From Ancylobacter tetraedralis (GTDB lineage Bacteria; Pseudomonadota; Alphaproteobacteria; Rhizobiales; Xanthobacteraceae), in the NCBI RefSeq assembly GCF_014195655.1, contig NZ_JACICD010000001.1, positions 534,682-598,681 of the forward strand: DNA of 64,000 nucleotides, read 5' to 3'. Made by a program: the position numbers and the translations under genes. Shown here one piece after another: positions 53,782 through 63,861 of the stretch. How positions within the stretch are numbered: the first letter of the stretch is position 1; every line of letters starts with the position of its first letter. The notes beneath the pieces are model-generated. The model saw only the letters and a list, made by a program, of their open reading frames with translations, did not search any database and was not told the origin of the DNA.

Positions 53782-55647
53782 TCACGCGTCGTCGAGGTGT
53801 TTGTAGACCGTGGTGCGCGAAATGCCGAGCTGGCGCGCGGTGGCGAGCACATTGCCGCCGCTGTCGCGATAGGCCTCGCGGATCTGCCGGCAGCGCAGCC
53901 GTGCCAGCATCGTATCGGCACAATGCCGGCAGACCTCCGCCGCCGCCTCCGGGTCCGCCGGCTCATCGTCCTCTTCCGCCTCGTCCAGGGCGTCGTCGGT
54001 CAGCACGGCGCGCCGCAGGAAGGATTGCAGTTCGCGAATATTGCCGTGCCACGGCCGGAGCCGGGCACGCTGCAGCGCGGCCTCGCGGAGCGTCGCGTCG
54101 GGCGCATGGAGCGCCAAGAGGTGGCGCGCGATGGCGTCGAAATCGCTGCGCGCCCGCAGCGGCGGAATCTCCAGGGCAAAACCGCACAGGCGGTAATAGA
54201 GATCGGAACGGAACTGCCGCGCCGCTGCGGCTGCCGCCAGATCGCGATTGGTGGCGGAGACGATCTGCACGTCCAGCTTCACGACGCGCGTGCCGCCGAT
54301 GGCGCGCAGCTCCATCGTGTCGAGGAAGCGCAGCAGCGCGCTCTGGGCGGCGAGGGGGATCTCGCCCACCTCGTCGAGGAACAGCGTGCCCTTGTCGGCC
54401 AGACGTATGAGACCGGAGGAGCCCTCGTTGCGCGCGCTGGTATAGGCGCCGCGCTCATGGCCGAACAATTCGCCGATGAACAGGCTCTCGGGCAGCGCGC
54501 CGCAATTGACCGCGACGAACGGCCCGGTCCGGCCGCTGATCTCGTGGACATGGCGGGCCATCAGCTCCTTGCCGGTGCCGGTCTCGCCGTGAATATGCAC
54601 GGCCAGCCGGCTGCGCACCGCCGCCTCCAGCCCGCGCATGCGCCGGCGCAGCACCGGATCCTCGCACACGAAGGCGGGCGTCGGCACGGAGGCCTTGGAC
54701 GGCGTCACGGCGGGCGGCGCGGCCTTGACCGGGACGGCCGTGCGGCCGGCGAGGCGGCGGCAGCTCACATGCAGCAGGCTGCCGGCACGGTCGCGCAGCC
54801 GCGCCACGCCATGGGCGGCCATCTCGTCCGCCACCGCCCCGAGATTCCCGTCGAACAGCGCCTCGAATCGCTGGCCCGGCTCGGCCTCCAGCCCCGCCAG
54901 CATCGCCCGCGCGGGGCGGTTGAGCGACAGCAGCACGCCCTCGGGCGACAGGGCGATGAGCCCGGCCGACAGCGTATCGAGATATTCCGCGCGCGGGTGC
55001 AGGGCGATGAGCAGCACGTCGCTGCGCTCCTGCGCGATCAGCCCGTTCTCCACCGCCGCCGCCGCCATGCGCACCAGCGCATGGGTGTGCTGCTGGCGCG
55101 CCTCATTGGTGGAGGAGGCGTCGATCAGCCCGGCGATGCGGCCGGCGGGATCGAAGATCGGCACGGCCACGCAGCTCAGCCGGCCGTGGCTGGCGAAGAA
55201 GTGCTCGCGCCCATAGACCGCGGCCGGGGCCTGTTCCACCAGCGCGAGGCCGAGCGCATTGGTGCCGCGCATCGTCTCGTCCCAGCGGCTGCCCGGCACG
55301 ATGGCGCGCCCGGCCTCGCTCTCGCTGAAGCGCGCGTCGCTGAGCGTGTCCAGCACCACCCCGTCGGCGTCGCCGAAGGCGATCATGAATTCCGAGCCGG
55401 CGATCTGCTCGTAAAGCAGCTGCATCTGCGCCAGCGCGAGGCGCCGCAGCAGCGCCCGCGCCTCGCGCCGCGCCTTCACCTCGGCAAAGGGCACCACGAC
55501 CTCGGAGGGTCGCTGGCCGGGATCGAGCCCGCCGGCGACGCAGCGTTCCCAGCTGCGGGCGATTTCCGGATTGAGCGCGCCGCCGGGAAAGCGGCCGCCG
55601 GCTTCGAGCGCGGCGCGCGCCCGGTCGAGGCTTGAGAGCGGTGGCAT
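53782..55647 (-). CDS. mimR: sigma-54-dependent enhancer-binding regulator, AcoR/MimR-like
   Basis: A 621-residue activator: N-terminal GAF-type sensor (about 60-200), central AAA+ domain with Walker A GETGTGKE and Walker B TLFLDEVGEIP, and a C-terminal Fis-type HTH (GGNVLATARQLGISRTTVYKHL, core LGISRTTVYKHL). The loop that normally reads GAFTGA and contacts sigma-54 is GAYTSA here. GGGAGG precedes the ATG. It is divergent from the alcohol dehydrogenase and monooxygenase genes, which have sigma-54 promoters, so it should activate them in response to a substrate such as propane, acetone or an alcohol. The long open frame upstream of the chosen start is not coding. Confidence 0.9.
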   Translation of the reverse strand: MPPLSSLDRARAALEAGGRFPGGALNPEIARSWERCVAGGLDPGQRPSEVVVPFAEVKARREARALLRRLALAQMQLLYEQIAGSEFMIAFGDADGVVLDTLSDARFSESEAGRAIVPGSRWDETMRGTNALGLALVEQAPAAVYGREHFFASHGRLSCVAVPIFDPAGRIAGLIDASSTNEARQQHTHALVRMAAAAVENGLIAQERSDVLLIALHPRAEYLDTLSAGLIALSPEGVLLSLNRPARAMLAGLEAEPGQRFEALFDGNLGAVADEMAAHGVARLRDRAGSLLHVSCRRLAGRTAVPVKAAPPAVTPSKASVPTPAFVCEDPVLRRRMRGLEAAVRSRLAVHIHGETGTGKELMARHVHEISGRTGPFVAVNCGALPESLFIGELFGHERGAYTSARNEGSSGLIRLADKGTLFLDEVGEIPLAAQSALLRFLDTMELRAIGGTRVVKLDVQIVSATNRDLAAAAAARQFRSDLYYRLCGFALEIPPLRARSDFDAIARHLLALHAPDATLREAALQRARLRPWHGNIRELQSFLRRAVLTDDALDEAEEDDEPADPEAAAEVCRHCADTMLARLRCRQIREAYRDSGGNVLATARQLGISRTTVYKHLDDA

Positions 55648-55899: not shown

Positions 55900-56952
55900 A
55901 TGAAGGCTCAGGTCCTGAAAACCTATGACGAAAAACTCGCCGGCGATCGCTGGGTGGTCGAGGAGAACGTGCCCGACCCGAAGATCGTCAAGTCGACCGA
56001 TGTCATCGTGCGCGTCGGCGGCGCGGGCGTCTGTCGCACGGACCTGCACATCATCGAGGGCGTGTGGAAGCCGCACATGGACCCGACGGGCGACCAGCTG
56101 CTGCCGCTCATCATGGGCCATGAGAATGCCGGCTGGATCGAGGAGGTCGGCAAGGAAGTCGAGGGGTTGAAGAGGGGCGATCCGGTCATCGTTCACCCCA
56201 AGATCACCGGCGGCACCTGCCTCGCCTGCCGGCGCGGCTTCGACATGCACGGGCCGGGCAAGTTTCCCGGGCTCGATTGCGACGGCGGCTATGCCGAGTT
56301 CATCTGCACCTCGGAGCGCAACATCGTGCCGCTGCCGCGCACGCTGGCACCGAAGGAAGTGGCGCCCTATGCCGATGCCGGCCTCACCGCCTATCGCGCG
56401 GTGAAGAAGGCGACGCGCCACCTGCTGCCCGGCGAGAGCTGCGTGGTGATCGGCGCCGGCGGCCTCGGCCATATCGGCATCCAGTGCCTCAAGGCCATGT
56501 GTGCCGCCGATGTCATCGTGGTCGACAAGTCCGACGCCTCGCTGGCGCTGGCGGCCAAGAGCGGCGCCGACAAGACGGTGAAGGCCGATGGCAACGAGGT
56601 GGAGGCGGTGCTGGAACTCACCGGCGGCGTCGGCGCCGAGGCGGTGATCGACTTTGTGGGCGAGAAGGGCACCACGAGCAAGGGCCTGAAGATGACCCGG
56701 CCCATGGGCAGCTATTACATCGTCGGCTATGGCGAAGACATCAAGATTCCGACGGTCGACCTGATCATCTCCGAGCGCAACATTATCGGCAATCTCGTCG
56801 GCACCTGGGCGGAACTTACCGAACTGATGGCGCTGGCCGATCGAGGCCTGGTTCATCTCGCGACCGCGGAATACAAGCTGTCGGAGGCCAACCAGGCGCT
56901 GCACGACCTCAATGCCGGCAAGATCCACGGCCGGGCCGTGCTGATCCCCTGA
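55900..56952 (+). CDS. zinc-dependent NAD(P) alcohol dehydrogenase
   Basis: A 350-residue medium-chain dehydrogenase. Catalytic-zinc residues are seen in GVCRTDLHIIEG and MGHENAGWIEEVG, and the Rossmann motif is GAGGLGHIG. The structural-zinc lobe is incomplete: CLAC is kept but the other two usual cysteines are missing (FDMHGPGKF). Alcohol dehydrogenases accompany propane monooxygenase clusters and oxidise the propanol product, here most likely 1- or 2-propanol or acetol. AGGGAG precedes ATG 55900, and the identical 16-bp start context recurs at the amidohydrolase gene. Confidence 0.9.
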   Translation: MKAQVLKTYDEKLAGDRWVVEENVPDPKIVKSTDVIVRVGGAGVCRTDLHIIEGVWKPHMDPTGDQLLPLIMGHENAGWIEEVGKEVEGLKRGDPVIVHPKITGGTCLACRRGFDMHGPGKFPGLDCDGGYAEFICTSERNIVPLPRTLAPKEVAPYADAGLTAYRAVKKATRHLLPGESCVVIGAGGLGHIGIQCLKAMCAADVIVVDKSDASLALAAKSGADKTVKADGNEVEAVLELTGGVGAEAVIDFVGEKGTTSKGLKMTRPMGSYYIVGYGEDIKIPTVDLIISERNIIGNLVGTWAELTELMALADRGLVHLATAEYKLSEANQALHDLNAGKIHGRAVLIP

Positions 56953-57555
56953 GGCCGGTACCGCATGATGTTGCCGCGGCATGACGATATCGGCCGGGGA
57001 GATTCTGGAATGCCATATATCATTTCGGCATCCCAGCAAATATATGTCGCGACGCAACAATGAATTCGGTAAGTAAGTGTTGTTGTCTGTCTCTTCGGCG
57101 ATGCAACATTTTCTCAAAATGAAACAACAACAAGCTGGAGATTCGCAAAACGGATCAATCCAGCCGGTCATTGGAAGCGGCGAGCCTGAAAAGTCGTTAA
57201 AACACTTACTGCGACGAGTTGGCACGCCTCTTGCTAATCTTCACATTAGAAAAATGCTGACTGGTCCCATGGGACGAGCCGCGACAAGAACGAAGGGGAG
57301 ATATTCGAGGAAGGCACCGGCGCGGCACCCCGCCGCCGGCCGGTGGACGATGCTCGCGCCCTGAGCGCGACCACCGAACCGCCAGACACGTCCCTCGGAT
57401 CTTGGACCTTTGCCGTCGTCGAACCCGCTTGTCGCACCTTGCGCCAGGCAACGGTTCGCCATGTCCCAAAGCCCGGCTCCGGGTGGCACCGCGTGCCGCG
57501 CCGGCGGCGGGAGGAAACAGACCGTGGACTCCGATCCAGGAGGAGGATGGTAGAA
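56953..57555 (+). promoter_or_regulatory. regulatory region and long leader of the monooxygenase operon
   Basis: About 600 bp with no convincing gene. The first half (56990-57260) is AT-rich and holds repeated GCAACA (57054-57059 and 57103-57108), TGTTGTTGT/ACAACAAC arms (57079-57086 and 57124-57131) and the inverted repeat CATTTT-CTC-AAAATG (57107-57121), about 110-170 bp upstream of the sigma-54 promoter, the usual place for enhancer-binding sites. The second half is a GC-rich leader of about 310 bases containing a hairpin at 57315-57345 and possibly more structure. Confidence 0.6.
57219..57237 (+). promoter_or_regulatory. sigma-54 promoter of the propane monooxygenase operon
   Basis: TTGGCACGCCTCTTGCTAA matches the consensus TGGCACG-N4-TTGC fully, with GG (57221-57222) and GC (57233-57234) ten bases apart. 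Start of transcription is expected near 57246, leaving a leader of about 310 bases before mimA. Confidence 0.92.
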
Positions 57556-59230
57556 ATGACCAACACACTGACCCTCAACAAGATCACGGCGCAGAAGGGC
57601 ATTCCCGTCGCCGAAGCCGCCAAGAAGATCGCCGATCTCGGGTGGAATCCCTCCTATGTGTGTGCAGGAGGCGATGACCTTCCCCACCGACTACAAGATC
57701 ACCAAGGCGCCGCGCGACCCGATGAAGCAGGTGCTGCGTTCCTACTTTCCGATGCAGGAAGAGAAGGACAACCGCGTCTATGGCGCGCTCGACGCGGCGC
57801 TGCGTGGCGACATGTTCCGCAATGTCGAGCCGCGCTGGGTGGAGTGGATGAAGCTCTTCCTCGCCATCATCCCGTTCCCGGAAATCTCGGCCGCGCGCTC
57901 CATGGCGATGGTCGGGCGCCTGGCGCCGGGCGAGGAACTGCGCACCGGCTTCACGATGCAGATGGTCGACGAGTTCCGCCATTCCACCATTCAGATGAAC
58001 CTGAAGAAGTGGTACATGGAGAACTATATCGACCCGGCTGGCTTCGACATCACCGAGGAAGCCTTCGGCAAGTGCTACGCCACCACGATCGGCCGCCAGT
58101 TCGGTGAAGGTTTCATCACCGGCGATGCCATCACCTCGGCCAATGTCTACCTCACCGTCGTGGCGGAAACCGCGTTCACCAACACGCTGTTCGTCGCCAT
58201 GCCCTCGGAAGCCGCCCGCAATGGCGACTACGCGCTGCCGACCGTGTTCCTCTCGGTGCAGTCCGACGAGAGCCGGCATGTCGGCAACGGCCATTCCATG
58301 CTGATGTCGATGCTGAAGGAGCCGGAAAACCATCTCCTGCTCGAGCGCGACATGCGCTACGCCTTCTGGCAGAACCACGCCATCGTGGATGCCGCCATCG
58401 GCACCTTCATCGAATACGGCACCACCAACCGCGACAAGAACAAGGAATCCTACGCGGAGATGTGGCATCGCTGGATCTTCGAGGATTACTACCGCACCTA
58501 CATGCTTCCCCTCGAGAAGTACGGCATCAAGATCCACCACGATGACGTGCAGACGGCGTGGAAGCGCATCACCGAGAAGAACTACGTCCACAAGATCGCA
58601 CAGTTCTTCTCGGTCGGCTGGCCGGTGAATTTCTGGCGCATCGAGGCTCAGACCGACAAGGACTTCGAGTGGTTCGAGTCGAAGTATCCGGGCTGGTACG
58701 GCGAGTTCGGCGAGTACTGGAAGTGGTACGAGAAGCTCTCGCATCGCGGCCAGACCAACATCACCTTCAACCCCGACACCGGCTATGTCTACCCGCACCG
58801 GTGCTGGAGCTCGATGGTGCCCTGCGTGGTGCGCGAGGACATCGTCACCGACACGATCGACGGCCAGCTGCACACCTTCGCCCACGAACTCGACCGCTGG
58901 ACCGCGGTTGAAGCCTTCGCCGGCGAATATCAGGGCCGTCCCACCCCGGCGATGGGCCGCTTCAGCGGTCGTCGCGAATGGGAAAGCTGCTACCACGACT
59001 GGGATCTGGCCGACGCCATCAAGGATCTCGGCTTCGTGCGTACCGACGGCAAGACCCTGGTGCCGCAGCCGCACCTGCGCTTCGAGCAGGACGAGATGTG
59101 GACGCTGGACGATGTGCGCGGCTTCACGCTGAAGAGCCCGCTCATCACCCTGCGGGGCATGAGCGAGGCCGAGCGCGAGAAGCATCTCGCCGAGTACCGC
59201 GCCGGCTTCACCATCAACCCCTGCAACTGA
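57556..59230 (+). CDS. mimA: propane-type monooxygenase hydroxylase large subunit, with apparent frameshift
   Basis: Catalytic alpha subunit of a group 5-like soluble diiron monooxygenase (MimA/PrmA). Iron ligands appear in FPEISAARS, VDEFRHS and DESRHVGN (two E-x2-H motifs) and GEGFITGDA. The natural start is ATG 57556 (MTNTLTLNKI) with AGGAGG nine bases upstream. That frame reads through LGWNPSYV and then loses homology, while the rest of the protein, from QEAMTFPTDYKI on, lies in the +1 frame to 59230. The switch falls at (TG)4, 57657-57664; two units fewer or one more would restore one frame of about 555 codons. As given, only a 524-residue form starting at the weak ATG 57656 could be made. 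The enzyme hydroxylates propane and, in relatives, acetone or phenol. Confidence 0.9.
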
Positions 59231-59304: not shown

Positions 59305-60366
59305 ATGGGCGACGTCTATACCGTCCGCTTGAACCCGGTCGGCGTCGAATTCGAGGTCGAGGAGGGCGAGACCGTCCTCGATGCCGCGTTCCGGCAGGGT
59401 ATCGCCCTGCCGCACGGCTGCAAGGAAGGCCGCTGCGCCGCCTGCAAATGCGTGCTGAACGAGGGCGAGGTGGAAATGAAGACCTATTCCACCTTCGCGC
59501 TCAACGAGATGGAGCGGGACCAGAACCACATTCTCCTGTGCCGCACGCTCGTCTACACCGATATCGACGTCGACCTGCTCAACTATGACGAGGAGCTGCT
59601 GTCGAAATCGATCCCGGTCCGCAGCATCGCAGGGCAGGTGAAGCGGGTCGTCGAACTCACCCATGACATACGTCGTCTGGAAATCGAGCTCGATCAGCCC
59701 ATCAAATTCTGGGCGGGGCAATATGTCGACATCACGCTCCCGGGACCAGAGGCGATTACGCGTTCGTTTTCCATGGCAAATACGCCGCTCGAAGGCAAAG
59801 AGCTCGCGTTCATCATCAAGAAATACCCCAATGGACGCTTCTCCTCCCGCCTCGACGGAGAACTCACGCCCGGAACCCGCCTCGATGCCCGAGGTCCCTT
59901 CGGAACCTGCTTTCGCCGGGAAGGACGATCCGGCGCCCTGATCCTGGTGGGCGGCGGCTCGGGCATGTCGCCGCTATGGTCGATCCTCAACGACCATTTC
60001 CAGAGCGGGGAGGACCGCGAGGTTCACTTCTTCTACGGCGCACGCACGCAGAAGGATCTGTTCTACCTCGACGAATTCGCCCGGCTGGCCGCGGAATATC
60101 CCCGCTTCCACTTCATCCCGGCGCTCTCGCACGCCGCGGACGATGCCGGCTGGACCGGCGAGACGGGTTTCGTGCACGAGGTGCTCGACGCCCATCTGCG
60201 CCGGCTCGAATTCGGCGAGGACTGCGATGTCTATGCCTGCGGCCCCGAGCCGATGATCGAGGCGCTGGTGCCGGTCCTGCAACTGAACGACGTCGCCACC
60301 GAGCGGATCCACTTCGACAAGTTCACGCCGGCGTCCACCACAACCGAGACTTTCGCTCACAGCTGA
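59305..60366 (+). CDS. mimB: propane-type monooxygenase reductase
   Basis: A 353-residue reductase with three domains in order: N-terminal [2Fe-2S] ferredoxin (HGCKEGRCAACKC, then the fourth Cys in LLCRT), FAD domain (RSFSMAN) and NAD domain (GGGSGMSPLWS, final YACGPEPMI). It delivers NADH electrons to the diiron hydroxylase. GGGGAGG lies eight bases before ATG 59305. The longer open frame upstream overlaps mimA and is not used. Confidence 0.94.
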   Translation: MGDVYTVRLNPVGVEFEVEEGETVLDAAFRQGIALPHGCKEGRCAACKCVLNEGEVEMKTYSTFALNEMERDQNHILLCRTLVYTDIDVDLLNYDEELLSKSIPVRSIAGQVKRVVELTHDIRRLEIELDQPIKFWAGQYVDITLPGPEAITRSFSMANTPLEGKELAFIIKKYPNGRFSSRLDGELTPGTRLDARGPFGTCFRREGRSGALILVGGGSGMSPLWSILNDHFQSGEDREVHFFYGARTQKDLFYLDEFARLAAEYPRFHFIPALSHAADDAGWTGETGFVHEVLDAHLRRLEFGEDCDVYACGPEPMIEALVPVLQLNDVATERIHFDKFTPASTTTETFAHS

Positions 60367-60423: not shown

Positions 60424-61494
60424 ATGACCGCCACAGAAACGGCAACGTTCAAGTCGGGGGCTGCCGGCTCGGCGATCTTCGCCGATAGCGATAGCCGCAA
60501 GTACCGTTACTTCGAGCCGCGCGGCAAGCGCGCCACCCATTACGAGGACGTCACGGTCGACGTCCAGCCCGATCCCGAGCGCTACCTGCTGCAGGACTGG
60601 ATCATCTCCTTCGCCAATGGCAAGGGCGCCTATTCCAAGGACAACACCGCCGCGCTGAGCTCCAACTGGCACCTGTTCCGCGCCCCGGACCAGGAGTGGG
60701 AGCGCACCCATTACCAGCGCCAGTCCAAGATCGAGGCGATGGTGCAGGCGGTCATCGCCAATGGCCGCAAGGCCGGCGCGCCCAAGGCCTTCGACCGGGC
60801 CTGGATCAAGGTGCTGCAGACCCATCTCGGCGCCTGGAAGCATGTTGAGTTCGGCCTTGGCACCTCGCTGATGCAGGCGCAGCGCTACGGCTACACGCAG
60901 ATGATCAACAACGCGACGCTGACCAATTCGTCGTACAAGCTGCGTCTCGCGCAGGACATCACGCTCTACCTCGCCGAAATCGGCATGGACATTTCCGGTT
61001 TCGACGACGAGGCGGGCAAGCGCGCCTGGCTCGAGGACGGGGTGTGGCAGGGTACCCGCCACGCGGTCGAGGCCATCATGGGCGCGACCGATTATCTCGA
61101 GCAGTATTTCGCCATCAACATCGTGTTCGAGCCGCTGGTGGGCGAACTGTTCCGCTCCGGCTTCCTCATGCAGGTGGCCTCGCCCAATGGCGACTTCATC
61201 ACCCCCTCGGTGATCTCGGCGGCCGAGGCCGACTACGAGCGCAACCTCGCCAACGCCATCGATCTGTTCCACGTGCTCGTCCACGACGCCGAGCATGCGG
61301 GGCACAATAAGGGCCTGTTCCAGGCTTGGCTGCACAAGCATGCGGCCCTCGCCGCCAAGGCCGCCGCCGGCCTGCAGCCCATCTGGTCGCAGCCCCATTC
61401 CAAGCCGGTGTCCTACGCCGACGCGCATGGCCATTCGCTGGAGCGCTTCGGCAAGATCCTCGGCGAACTCGGCCTCGACATTCCCAGGGAGTGA
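60424..61494 (+). CDS. mimC: propane-type monooxygenase hydroxylase small subunit
   Basis: A 356-residue beta subunit of the hydroxylase, of the ferritin-like fold but lacking the full set of iron ligands. It shows the family N-terminus RKYRYFEPRGKRATHYEDVT (core YFEPRGKRAT) and LQDWIISFANGKG. It forms the alpha2-beta2 core with MimA. GGGAGG precedes the ATG; mimD follows six bases later. Confidence 0.93.
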   Translation: MTATETATFKSGAAGSAIFADSDSRKYRYFEPRGKRATHYEDVTVDVQPDPERYLLQDWIISFANGKGAYSKDNTAALSSNWHLFRAPDQEWERTHYQRQSKIEAMVQAVIANGRKAGAPKAFDRAWIKVLQTHLGAWKHVEFGLGTSLMQAQRYGYTQMINNATLTNSSYKLRLAQDITLYLAEIGMDISGFDDEAGKRAWLEDGVWQGTRHAVEAIMGATDYLEQYFAINIVFEPLVGELFRSGFLMQVASPNGDFITPSVISAAEADYERNLANAIDLFHVLVHDAEHAGHNKGLFQAWLHKHAALAAKAAAGLQPIWSQPHSKPVSYADAHGHSLERFGKILGELGLDIPRE

Positions 61495-61500
61495 ACATCC

Positions 61501-61872
61501 ATGTCCGTGACATCGCGTTCCGCCACCAACAGCAACATCTTCCAGAAGATGGACGCCATCGTCTTCAACCAGACGATTTCGCACCAGTGCGGCGTCACCA
61601 TGAATGACAGCGTCGAGGCCCGCGCCATCGCCGAGTTCATGGCGCAGAAGCCCAACGTCACCGTGACCTATCAGCCGGCGCTGATCCGCATCGACGGCGA
61701 GGGCAAGATCGTCTTCAAGATGGACGAGATCGGCGAGATCCTCGGCAAGGAAATGAATGCCGAGATCTTCGAGGTCAACACGTCCACCCACTATGGCCGC
61801 ATGATCCGCGTCGACGACAACACCGTCACGCTGTTCGGCGACATGGACGAGATGCGCCAATACATCGAGTGA
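61501..61872 (+). CDS. mimD: propane-type monooxygenase coupling/effector protein
   Basis: A 123-residue cofactor-free protein of the MmoB/DmpM family. Recognisable parts are VEARAIAEFMAQKPNVTVTYQPALIRIDGEGKIVFKMDEI (cores EARAIAEFM and RIDGEGKIVF) and the conserved HYGRMIRVDDNTV end. It docks on the hydroxylase to gate substrate and oxygen. Its length is typical for the propane monooxygenase branch. Confidence 0.93.
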   Translation: MSVTSRSATNSNIFQKMDAIVFNQTISHQCGVTMNDSVEARAIAEFMAQKPNVTVTYQPALIRIDGEGKIVFKMDEIGEILGKEMNAEIFEVNTSTHYGRMIRVDDNTVTLFGDMDEMRQYIE

Positions 61873-61969: not shown

Positions 61970-62992
61970 ATGTACACGACGCCCGACGGCGAAGAGGTCT
62001 TCATCATCGACGGCCACACGCATTTCTGGGACGGCAGTCCGGAAAACCAGAAGAACATCCATGGCAAGCAGTTCATCGACTGCTTCTACGGCTACCACAG
62101 CTCACTGAGCCCCAAGGACAAGCTGTGGACCCGCGAGCAATTCGCCAAGTACAGCGCCGACAAGATGTATCACGACCTGTTCGTCGACGGTCCCGACGAC
62201 ATGGCGATCGTGCAGTCGACCTATCTCAAGGACTTCTACAAGAACGGCTTCAACACGATCGAGCGCAACCATGAGATGGCGCAGGGCCAGCCGGGTCGCT
62301 TCATCGTCAACGGCGCCTACGATCCGCGCGACGGCGAGGAAGCGCTGGAGTACATCCACTTCCTGAAGGAAACCTACGACGTCAAGGGCGTGAAGCTGTA
62401 CACCGCCGAGTGGAAGGGCGAGTCGCGCGGCTGGAAGCTGACCGATCCCAATTCCTATCGCTGCCTCGAGCTCTGCCAGAAGCTCGGCATCACCAATGTT
62501 CACATCCACAAGGGCCCGACCATCATCCCGCTCGACAAGGATGCCTTCGACGTCCACGACGTCGACCATGTCGCGACCGACTTCCAGGGGCTCAACTTCA
62601 TCATCGAGCATTGCGGCCTGCCCCGGCTCGACGATTTCTGCTGGATCGCGGTGCAGGAGACCAATGTCTATGGCGGCCTCGCCGTGGCGCTGCCCTTCAT
62701 CCATTCCCGCCCGCGCTACTTCGCCGAGGTCATCAGCGAACTGCTGTTCTGGGTCGGCGAGGACAAGCTGCTGTTCGGCTCGGACTACGCCATCTGGACG
62801 CCGCGCTGGCTGGTCGAGAAGTTCTGGAACTTCGAGATCCCCGAGGACATCAAGCAGGAGCATGGCGTCGACCTCACCAAGGAGGCCAAGCGCAAGATCC
62901 TCGGCCTCAACGCCGCGCGGCTCTACAATATCGATGTCGAAGCGCAGAAGGTGCGCCTGAAGAACTCCCCGCTCGCCGTCGCGGCGGAGTAG
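61970..62992 (+). CDS. amidohydrolase-2-family metal-dependent hydrolase of the monooxygenase operon
   Basis: A 340-residue TIM-barrel metallohydrolase. The first metal motif is DGHTHFWDG (H-x-H, about residues 13-15), the barrel continues with GVKLYTAEW and NVHIHKGPT, HCGLPRLDDF and the late LLFGSDYAIW aspartate. This gene is a regular companion of prm/mim monooxygenases, but no function is established. It could act on a downstream metabolite or assist the enzyme's maturation. AGAAGGGAGAACGCC before the ATG copies the start context of the alcohol dehydrogenase. Confidence 0.85.
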   Translation: MYTTPDGEEVFIIDGHTHFWDGSPENQKNIHGKQFIDCFYGYHSSLSPKDKLWTREQFAKYSADKMYHDLFVDGPDDMAIVQSTYLKDFYKNGFNTIERNHEMAQGQPGRFIVNGAYDPRDGEEALEYIHFLKETYDVKGVKLYTAEWKGESRGWKLTDPNSYRCLELCQKLGITNVHIHKGPTIIPLDKDAFDVHDVDHVATDFQGLNFIIEHCGLPRLDDFCWIAVQETNVYGGLAVALPFIHSRPRYFAEVISELLFWVGEDKLLFGSDYAIWTPRWLVEKFWNFEIPEDIKQEHGVDLTKEAKRKILGLNAARLYNIDVEAQKVRLKNSPLAVAAE

Positions 62993-62997
62993 GCGCG

Positions 62998-63861
62998 ATG
63001 GGCGCGATGGACAACACCCCGATCGGCGGCGACACGCGTGTCGCCGCCCTGTGGGACGGCCTGTCCCGCGTCATGGATCCCGAGCTCGACGAGTCCATCG
63101 TCGACCTCGGCTTCGTGACCGATGTCTCGCTCGACGCGGCCGGCCGCGTCGATGTCGGCTTCCGCCTGCCCACCTACTGGTGCTCGCCGAACTTCGCCTT
63201 CCTCATGGTCGACGACATCGCCCGGGAACTCGCACGCCTGCCCTTCGTGCGCGAGGTGCATCCGAAGCTGCACGACCACATGGCCTCGGACGAGGTCAAT
63301 CGCGGCGCGCATCTCGGCCTCTCCTTCGCCGAGACGTTCAGCGCCTTCGAGGTCTCCGGCACGCTGGAGGACCTGCGCGAGACCTTCCATCGCAAGGCCT
63401 TCCAGCGCCGGCAGGAGGCGGTGATCCTCGGGTTGCGGCGGGCCGGCTGGTCGAATGCCGCCATCGTCTCGGCCGACCTGGCCACGCTGGATCGGGTGGT
63501 GCTGGAGGACGAGGAAGCGGCGCGCCAGAAGCCGCGCTACCGCGAATTGCTGCTGGCGCGCGCGCTGGCCTCGACGCCCAGTGACCGTGCCTTCGTGACG
63601 CTGGAGGGCGCTCCCCTCACCGAGGTGACGCTCCCCGCGCATATGCGGGCGCTGCGCGCGGTGCGCATCAACATGGAAGCCAACGGCGCCCTGTGCCGCG
63701 GTCTTCTCGATGCTCGCTATGGCGAGGCGCCGGCCCCTGAAGTGCCGGCGCACGAGCCCGACCACGCGGCTCATGCCTGTGGCGGCGGCGGCAAGGCCTG
63801 CTGCGGCGGCTGCGCGCGACAGGTCTCCGCATTCCAGCCCACCGCCGCGCCGGATCTCTGA
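62998..63861 (+). CDS. DUF59/metal-sulfur cluster assembly-type protein with Cys/His-rich tail
   Basis: A 287-residue protein. Residues 12-110 form a DUF59/PaaD-like domain (GLSRVMDPELDESIVDLGFV, core VMDPELDESIVDLG, and LPTYWCSPNFAFLM). The middle (about 110-245) is helical and of unknown type. The last ~45 residues end in a possible metal-binding tail with HACGGGGKACCGGC. Such proteins occur in propane monooxygenase operons next to a GroEL-like gene, suggesting help with diiron-site insertion. Starts at ATG 62998, three bases after the amidohydrolase stop codon; ATG 63007 is an alternative. Confidence 0.85.
   Translation: MGAMDNTPIGGDTRVAALWDGLSRVMDPELDESIVDLGFVTDVSLDAAGRVDVGFRLPTYWCSPNFAFLMVDDIARELARLPFVREVHPKLHDHMASDEVNRGAHLGLSFAETFSAFEVSGTLEDLRETFHRKAFQRRQEAVILGLRRAGWSNAAIVSADLATLDRVVLEDEEAARQKPRYRELLLARALASTPSDRAFVTLEGAPLTEVTLPAHMRALRAVRINMEANGALCRGLLDARYGEAPAPEVPAHEPDHAAHACGGGGKACCGGCARQVSAFQPTAAPDL

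Follow-up and report, generated by a model that had tools for sequence, protein, structure and literature searches.

In Ancylobacter tetraedralis, does the gene for the catalytic subunit in a propane-monooxygenase-like operon still encode its enzyme, and what are the origin and meaning of the short TG repeat at which its reading frame breaks? The gene lies in a 64,000-nucleotide stretch of DNA (hereafter the window, meaning the whole stretch that we analysed) on contig 1 of a 5.03-Mb draft assembly of 29 contigs that is 99.88% complete. The closest genome compared (G001), taken as Ancylobacter amanitiformis DSM 15561 (NZ_JAUSVR010000002.1), shares ~94% DNA identity with the window, and the main aligned pieces range from 91.5 to 95.4%, which makes the source of the window a different species of the genus.

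Relatives were sampled at several levels. The genus sample comprised 29 other Ancylobacter genomes, one genome per species. The family-wide search covered 391 genomes, a copy being a match at E up to 1e-100 and the query starting at the protein's third residue; the order-wide sample held 397 genomes, with one genome (G228) common to both. From a broader scan, the best 80 of 520 relatives were retained. The 86 locus rows used below consist of 6 from the genus search, of which 5 are duplicate genes, and 80 from the wider scan; 82 of them could be read with a pattern at the junction, and the remaining four are L063, L072, L082 and L083.

Frame break in the hydroxylase large-subunit gene

The features of the locus are listed in Table 1. 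Upstream of ATG 57556 stands AGGAGGAGG, and the frame opened there reads MTNTLTLNKITAQKGIPVAEAAKKIADLGWNPSYV. Translation from this ATG gives, as the sequence stands, a chain of 183 aa with a stop at 58107, of which the first 35 residues only are family-like. The remainder of the hydroxylase is found in the frame of ATG 57656, which runs for 524 aa to a stop ending at 59230, and the A. amanitiformis copy passes through the junction in one uninterrupted frame of 556 aa. The preliminary description of this DNA had proposed a strong ribosome site at ATG 57556, a family-like N-terminus up to LGWNPSYV and a switch of frame at a (TG)4 run; all three were confirmed in the sequence, and the single frame of the relatives agrees with them. 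The length given there for the intact protein, 555 residues, is corrected to 556 on the basis of the A. amanitiformis copy.

Calculated anti-Shine-Dalgarno duplexes amounted to -15.0 kcal/mol for ATG 57556, -7.2 for ATG 57656 and -10.3 for ATG 57674. The last is a further in-frame start with AGGAGG 2 nt upstream, a spacing too short for a good site. The earlier view that ATG 57656 lacks a good ribosome site thus holds in that its site is weak; the site is not absent, and ATG 57674 is also available in the same frame.

Table 1. Features of the hydroxylase operon and of the frame break, in window coordinates
Feature	Position	Strand	Remarks
Sigma-54-dependent regulator (GAF, Sigma54_activat, Fis-type HTH)	53782..55560	-	
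Zinc alcohol dehydrogenase	55900..56952	+	
Sigma-54 type promoter, near-consensus, TGGCACGCCTCTTGCT (TGGCACG-N4-TTGCT)	57220..57235	+	motif; ~320 bp before hydroxylase start
5' part of hydroxylase large-subunit gene, codons 1-35 (MTNTL...LGWNPSYV)	57556..57660	+	strong Shine-Dalgarno upstream; A. amanitiformis has identical 35 residues
Inverted repeat CCTCCT/AGGAGG, 6 bp, TG run in loop	57650..57671	+	in 6/6 congeners
524-aa remaining open frame (MCV + 521 native codons)	57656..59230	+	six di-iron ligand positions included
(TG)4, TGTG tandem duplication, frame lost	57657..57664	+	4 bp longer than nearest relative
Reductase (Fer2, FAD_binding_6, NAD_binding_1)	59305..60366	+	intact
Hydroxylase small subunit	60424..61494	+	intact
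Coupling protein (MmoB_DmpM; MimD-like, below NCBIfam cut-off)	61501..61872	+	intact
Amidohydrolase-type metal hydrolase	61970..62992	+	intact
Iron-sulphur cluster assembly type protein (FeS_assembly_P)	62998..63861	+	287-aa open frame

The junction and the operon in relatives

The large subunit of the operon is patchily distributed in Ancylobacter: a close copy is present in 6 of the 29 other genomes, another shows just a weak match (28%), and no match was found in the remaining 22. At the junction, five of the six congeners with a copy read TATGTGCAG and one reads TATGTCCAG, and the window, with TATGTGTGTGCAG, has exactly 4 bp more. The congeners have (TG)2 or TGTC at the TG site, and the duplication was seen in the window only. 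The preliminary description had named (TG)2 and (TG)5 as the states that would restore the frame; the former does occur in congeners, and the latter in none of the relatives read.

Wider sampling gave the same picture. A copy was found in 31 of the 391 genomes of the family, and the 30 others align in one frame from query residue 1-3 to 551-554, while the alignment of the source genome's own copy begins at residue 27 only. In the order, a copy is present in 22 of 397 genomes, with alignments beginning at residue 1-5 in the 21 others and at residue 29 in the source genome's own copy. LGWNP[ST][YF]V stands immediately before QEA, in one frame, in all 82 readable locus rows, and the alignments of the four unreadable rows span residue 2-6 to 557. 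A natural start of close homologues at MCVQEAM, which had been raised as a way in which the upstream frame could be irrelevant, is ruled out, as none of the 82 readable rows starts there and all extend upstream in frame; on this point the preliminary description is borne out. As judged from the sequence, the lesion is a private, presumably disabling change in a gene that is intact in the relatives examined. The genus and family searches found no second copy of the hydroxylase gene in the source genome.

Homologues of the gene also occur on plasmids, with 26 plasmid records covering at least 80% of the query. The homologue on plasmid pShin-04 of Shinella sp. HZN7 (NZ_CP015740.1; L101, 3001-4047) is cut after about residue 351 and is a match without an annotated gene; an IS21 istA/istB pair lies directly 3' of it, so that this copy is broken by a different route.

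Downstream of the broken gene, the reductase, small subunit, coupling protein and hydrolase are unbroken and share 97-100% protein identity with those of A. amanitiformis. A GroEL-type gene lies just past the window end; along the entire open frame it shares 93% identity with its A. amanitiformis counterpart. A sigma-54-like site lies ahead of the gene in 69 of the 84 rows in which the junction was found, the window's row counted; the A. amanitiformis promoter reads TGGCACG-N4-TTGCG, differing in the last base, and no such site was found upstream of the gene in one further genome (G022, L005). Within the operon, the catalytic subunit alone looks to be hit, and the predicted promoter and the partner genes look intact. 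Beyond the window, after the GroEL gene, lies an open reading frame for a putative second sigma-54-type regulator, so named from its sequence (774 aa; L096, 3109-5433; 95% identical in A. amanitiformis).

Actinobacterial prmABCD operons agree with this locus in the order of the four genes and in the types of genes around them (PMC4428276). Like prmABCD/mimABCD of Rhodococcus BCP1 and RHA1, Gordonia TY-5 and Mycobacterium goodii, the window has the large subunit, reductase, small subunit and coupling protein in this order, and it shares with those operons a metal-dependent hydrolase, a metal-sulphur cluster protein, GroEL, an alcohol dehydrogenase and a Fis-type regulator (PMC4428276). Unlike in those operons, the large-subunit gene of the window is frameshifted, and the alcohol dehydrogenase and the regulator lie upstream. 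Among the matches listed, the best actinobacterial plasmid copy shows 63% identity across most of its length. None of the NCBIfam names passes its cut-off (MimD scores 108 of 150 bits), so that propane is a putative substrate. Among the papers listed for this gene in Ancylobacter, none names the operon in its title or abstract opening, and a search combining propane monooxygenase, Methylocella and frameshift found no paper.

Age and origin of the duplication

Over the 521 codons shared with A. amanitiformis, we counted 40 synonymous and 2 non-synonymous differences and no stop. The residue that the window has at each of the two non-synonymous sites is the most frequent one there (K, 49 of the 82 rows; E, 65 of them), and the direction of these two changes is unclear among the five congeners alone. 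When the 40 synonymous differences were polarised with the five congeners, 7 fell on the window's branch and 13 on the other, 20 being unclear. Seven synonymous changes correspond, as a rough figure, to 26 amino-acid changes expected without constraint (7 x 1227.5/335.5 sites), whereas at most 2 were observed, indicating that constraint acted on the gene along most of this branch. The ratio of 40 to 2, together with the commonest residues at both sites, suggests either a recent lesion or continued selection on the gene. Such constraint would be expected equally of a young lesion, of an error in the sequence and of a short form that is still in use.

A sequence error had been raised as a possible cause in the preliminary description, and we agree that it has to be weighed; the cell would then have the unduplicated sequence and make the normal 556-aa protein, while the assembled sequence would look just as it does. 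In its favour, the rest of the gene is conserved and shows no decay, and the assembly is a draft in 29 contigs. On the other hand, an exact 4-bp tandem duplication within a run of 8 bp is atypical for current platforms, whose usual errors concern homopolymer length or substitutions. In addition, we compared 59 A. amanitiformis ORFs, called mechanically by G+C at third positions, with the window. Twelve had no match (outside the overlap), one had only a 32% paralogue and one was cut at the window's edge. Among the remaining 45, 40 aligned whole and five were flagged, the hydroxylase gene being the sole clear interior frame break. The four others were all flagged at their ends: the first 39 of 404 residues in one, the final 10 of 138 in another, the first 68 of 315 left unaligned in a third, and a 21-residue piece in another frame that starts a 789-aa ORF. 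In the reverse comparison, no problem was seen in 41 of 42 window ORFs; the other one is an antisense ORF that was called too long. With the other 44 of the 45 ORFs free of a clear interior frame break, general assembly noise was rejected, and the assembly is not generally error-ridden. Note that the pairwise alignment of the window with A. amanitiformis contains 100 indels, of which 81 are not a multiple of three, and that the 4-bp one is the sole indel within 57556-59230. We regard the error as unlikely, and it is quite likely that the frameshift is real.

The reading that we favour, and consider reasonably probable, is that a recent 4-bp tandem duplication put the gene for the catalytic subunit in a propane-monooxygenase-like operon out of frame, as a real mutation that abolishes or strongly reduces function. 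Replication slippage turning TGTG into TGTGTGTG would be the simplest origin, and the flanking CCTCCT/AGGAGG perhaps helped it. Folded as RNA in its short form, this inverted repeat gives -8.1 kcal/mol; its presence in all six congeners indicates that it is made by conserved codons. As a special hot spot it was rejected, since those congeners carry the repeat without the duplication, and it would be a helper at best. A mutator state was likewise rejected, as genes of the mutS and mutL families, the two repair genes examined, were found without internal stops.

The TG run had also been suggested to be an on/off device, in which reversible slippage would switch the enzyme. Its position in the 5' coding part, its dinucleotide unit and the flanking inverted repeat are what such a contingency locus would have, but the run has four units only. 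In the window 0.62 such runs are expected, and at least one occurred in 47 of 100 shuffled windows. Chance can account for the (TG)4 run alone, but not for a broken frame within a conserved gene. Typical dinucleotide microsatellites have 5-50 units according to PMC7015867. The relatives speak against the device as well, because a longer or variable run was seen in none of those read: the congeners have no variable-length repeat at the site, and the junction is unbroken in the 30 other family and 21 other order copies. The presence of mutS and mutL points the same way. With a tract no longer than chance and no length variation in six congeners at one genome per species, a switch is unlikely as far as a comparison across species can tell, and reversible slippage here strikes us as extremely improbable.

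A recoding event would be another way to keep the gene in use: a ribosome at UGU could slip two bases back to an identical UGU, or hop from GUG to GUG, giving low-level full-length protein. The sequence ...UAU GUG UGU GCA makes such re-pairing geometrically possible, but we found none of the known kinds of stimulator, and the relatives are without such a site, so that the run was not selected for recoding. We give this scarcely any weight. That the TG run is a working device at all, hedging an expensive oxygenase either by population switching or by UGU re-pairing that lets a small amount of full-length enzyme, two residues longer, be made, is in our judgement very improbable.

The lost N-terminus and the expected outcome

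The 524-aa part scores 199.9 bits with Pfam Phenol_Hydrox, and methane monooxygenase (MMO) alpha chains in the PDB match the A. amanitiformis copy at E about 1e-63; this domain and the kinship with MMO and phenol hydroxylase support the earlier assignment to the MimA/PrmA-type hydroxylase large subunits. The di-iron ligand positions, assigned by the ligand numbering in MMO, are E108, E138, H141, E203, E237 and H240 (four Glu and two His, with ExxH pairs). They are invariant in 24 relatives and aligned with MMO, and all six are retained in the 524-aa frame.

An internal-start protein of 524 (or 518) aa could accordingly be made and work, the upstream frame being merely lost. The long frame is intact and conserved with its six ligand positions, and there are the weak site at ATG 57656 and the AGGAGG 2 nt before ATG 57674 to start from. 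However, 18 of the 35 N-terminal positions are invariant in the 24 aligned relatives. The 524-aa form is without Phenol_Hydrox positions 1-24, where the domain starts, and a portion of what is lost aligns, as a weak match in the right place, with chains of methane monooxygenase and phenol hydroxylase whose structures are solved. None of the relatives read uses the internal start. The predicted structure of the lost N-terminus has a mean pLDDT of 41, too low for use. Conservation argues that this stretch is not dispensable; a protein from an internal start would keep the di-iron site, lack the conserved start of the domain and probably be poor or inactive. A functional short form thus appears improbable to us.

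Under the favoured duplication, the main product would be a useless 183-aa chain, and the internal starts would yield no more than small amounts of a 524- or 518-aa protein. The cell would then have little or no working enzyme, and the strain would be deficient in this oxidation with the rest of the operon ready to work. Because ribosome-site pairing at the internal starts and the six ligands are kept in the 524-aa frame, loss of function is something that we infer from sequence. The gene is dispensable in the genus, since 23 of the 29 other genomes have no close copy. Predictions of propane-type oxidation from this genome would be misled, as a family search returns a long conserved frame although the gene as written has no normal protein. 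If the duplication is real, the strain offers a near-isogenic null of natural origin for an operon of patchy occurrence; in the case of an error, the sequence record needs correction.

Two phase-variable genes offer a comparison: oipA of Helicobacter pylori, with a (CT)n run (PMC10564699), and a type III methyltransferase gene of Mycoplasma mycoides, with (AG)12 (PMC3498834). Compared with these, the present gene is similar in having a coding dinucleotide run whose length sets the frame, and differs in having four units, no length variants in relatives, a metabolic enzyme as its product and an environmental bacterium as its host. We found nothing by which the locus differs from an ordinary recent pseudogene. 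The event is ordinary in kind and says little new on gene switching: as in other such pseudogenes that arise from a short tandem duplication, there is a single frame break, in a gene otherwise conserved and with an accessory function.
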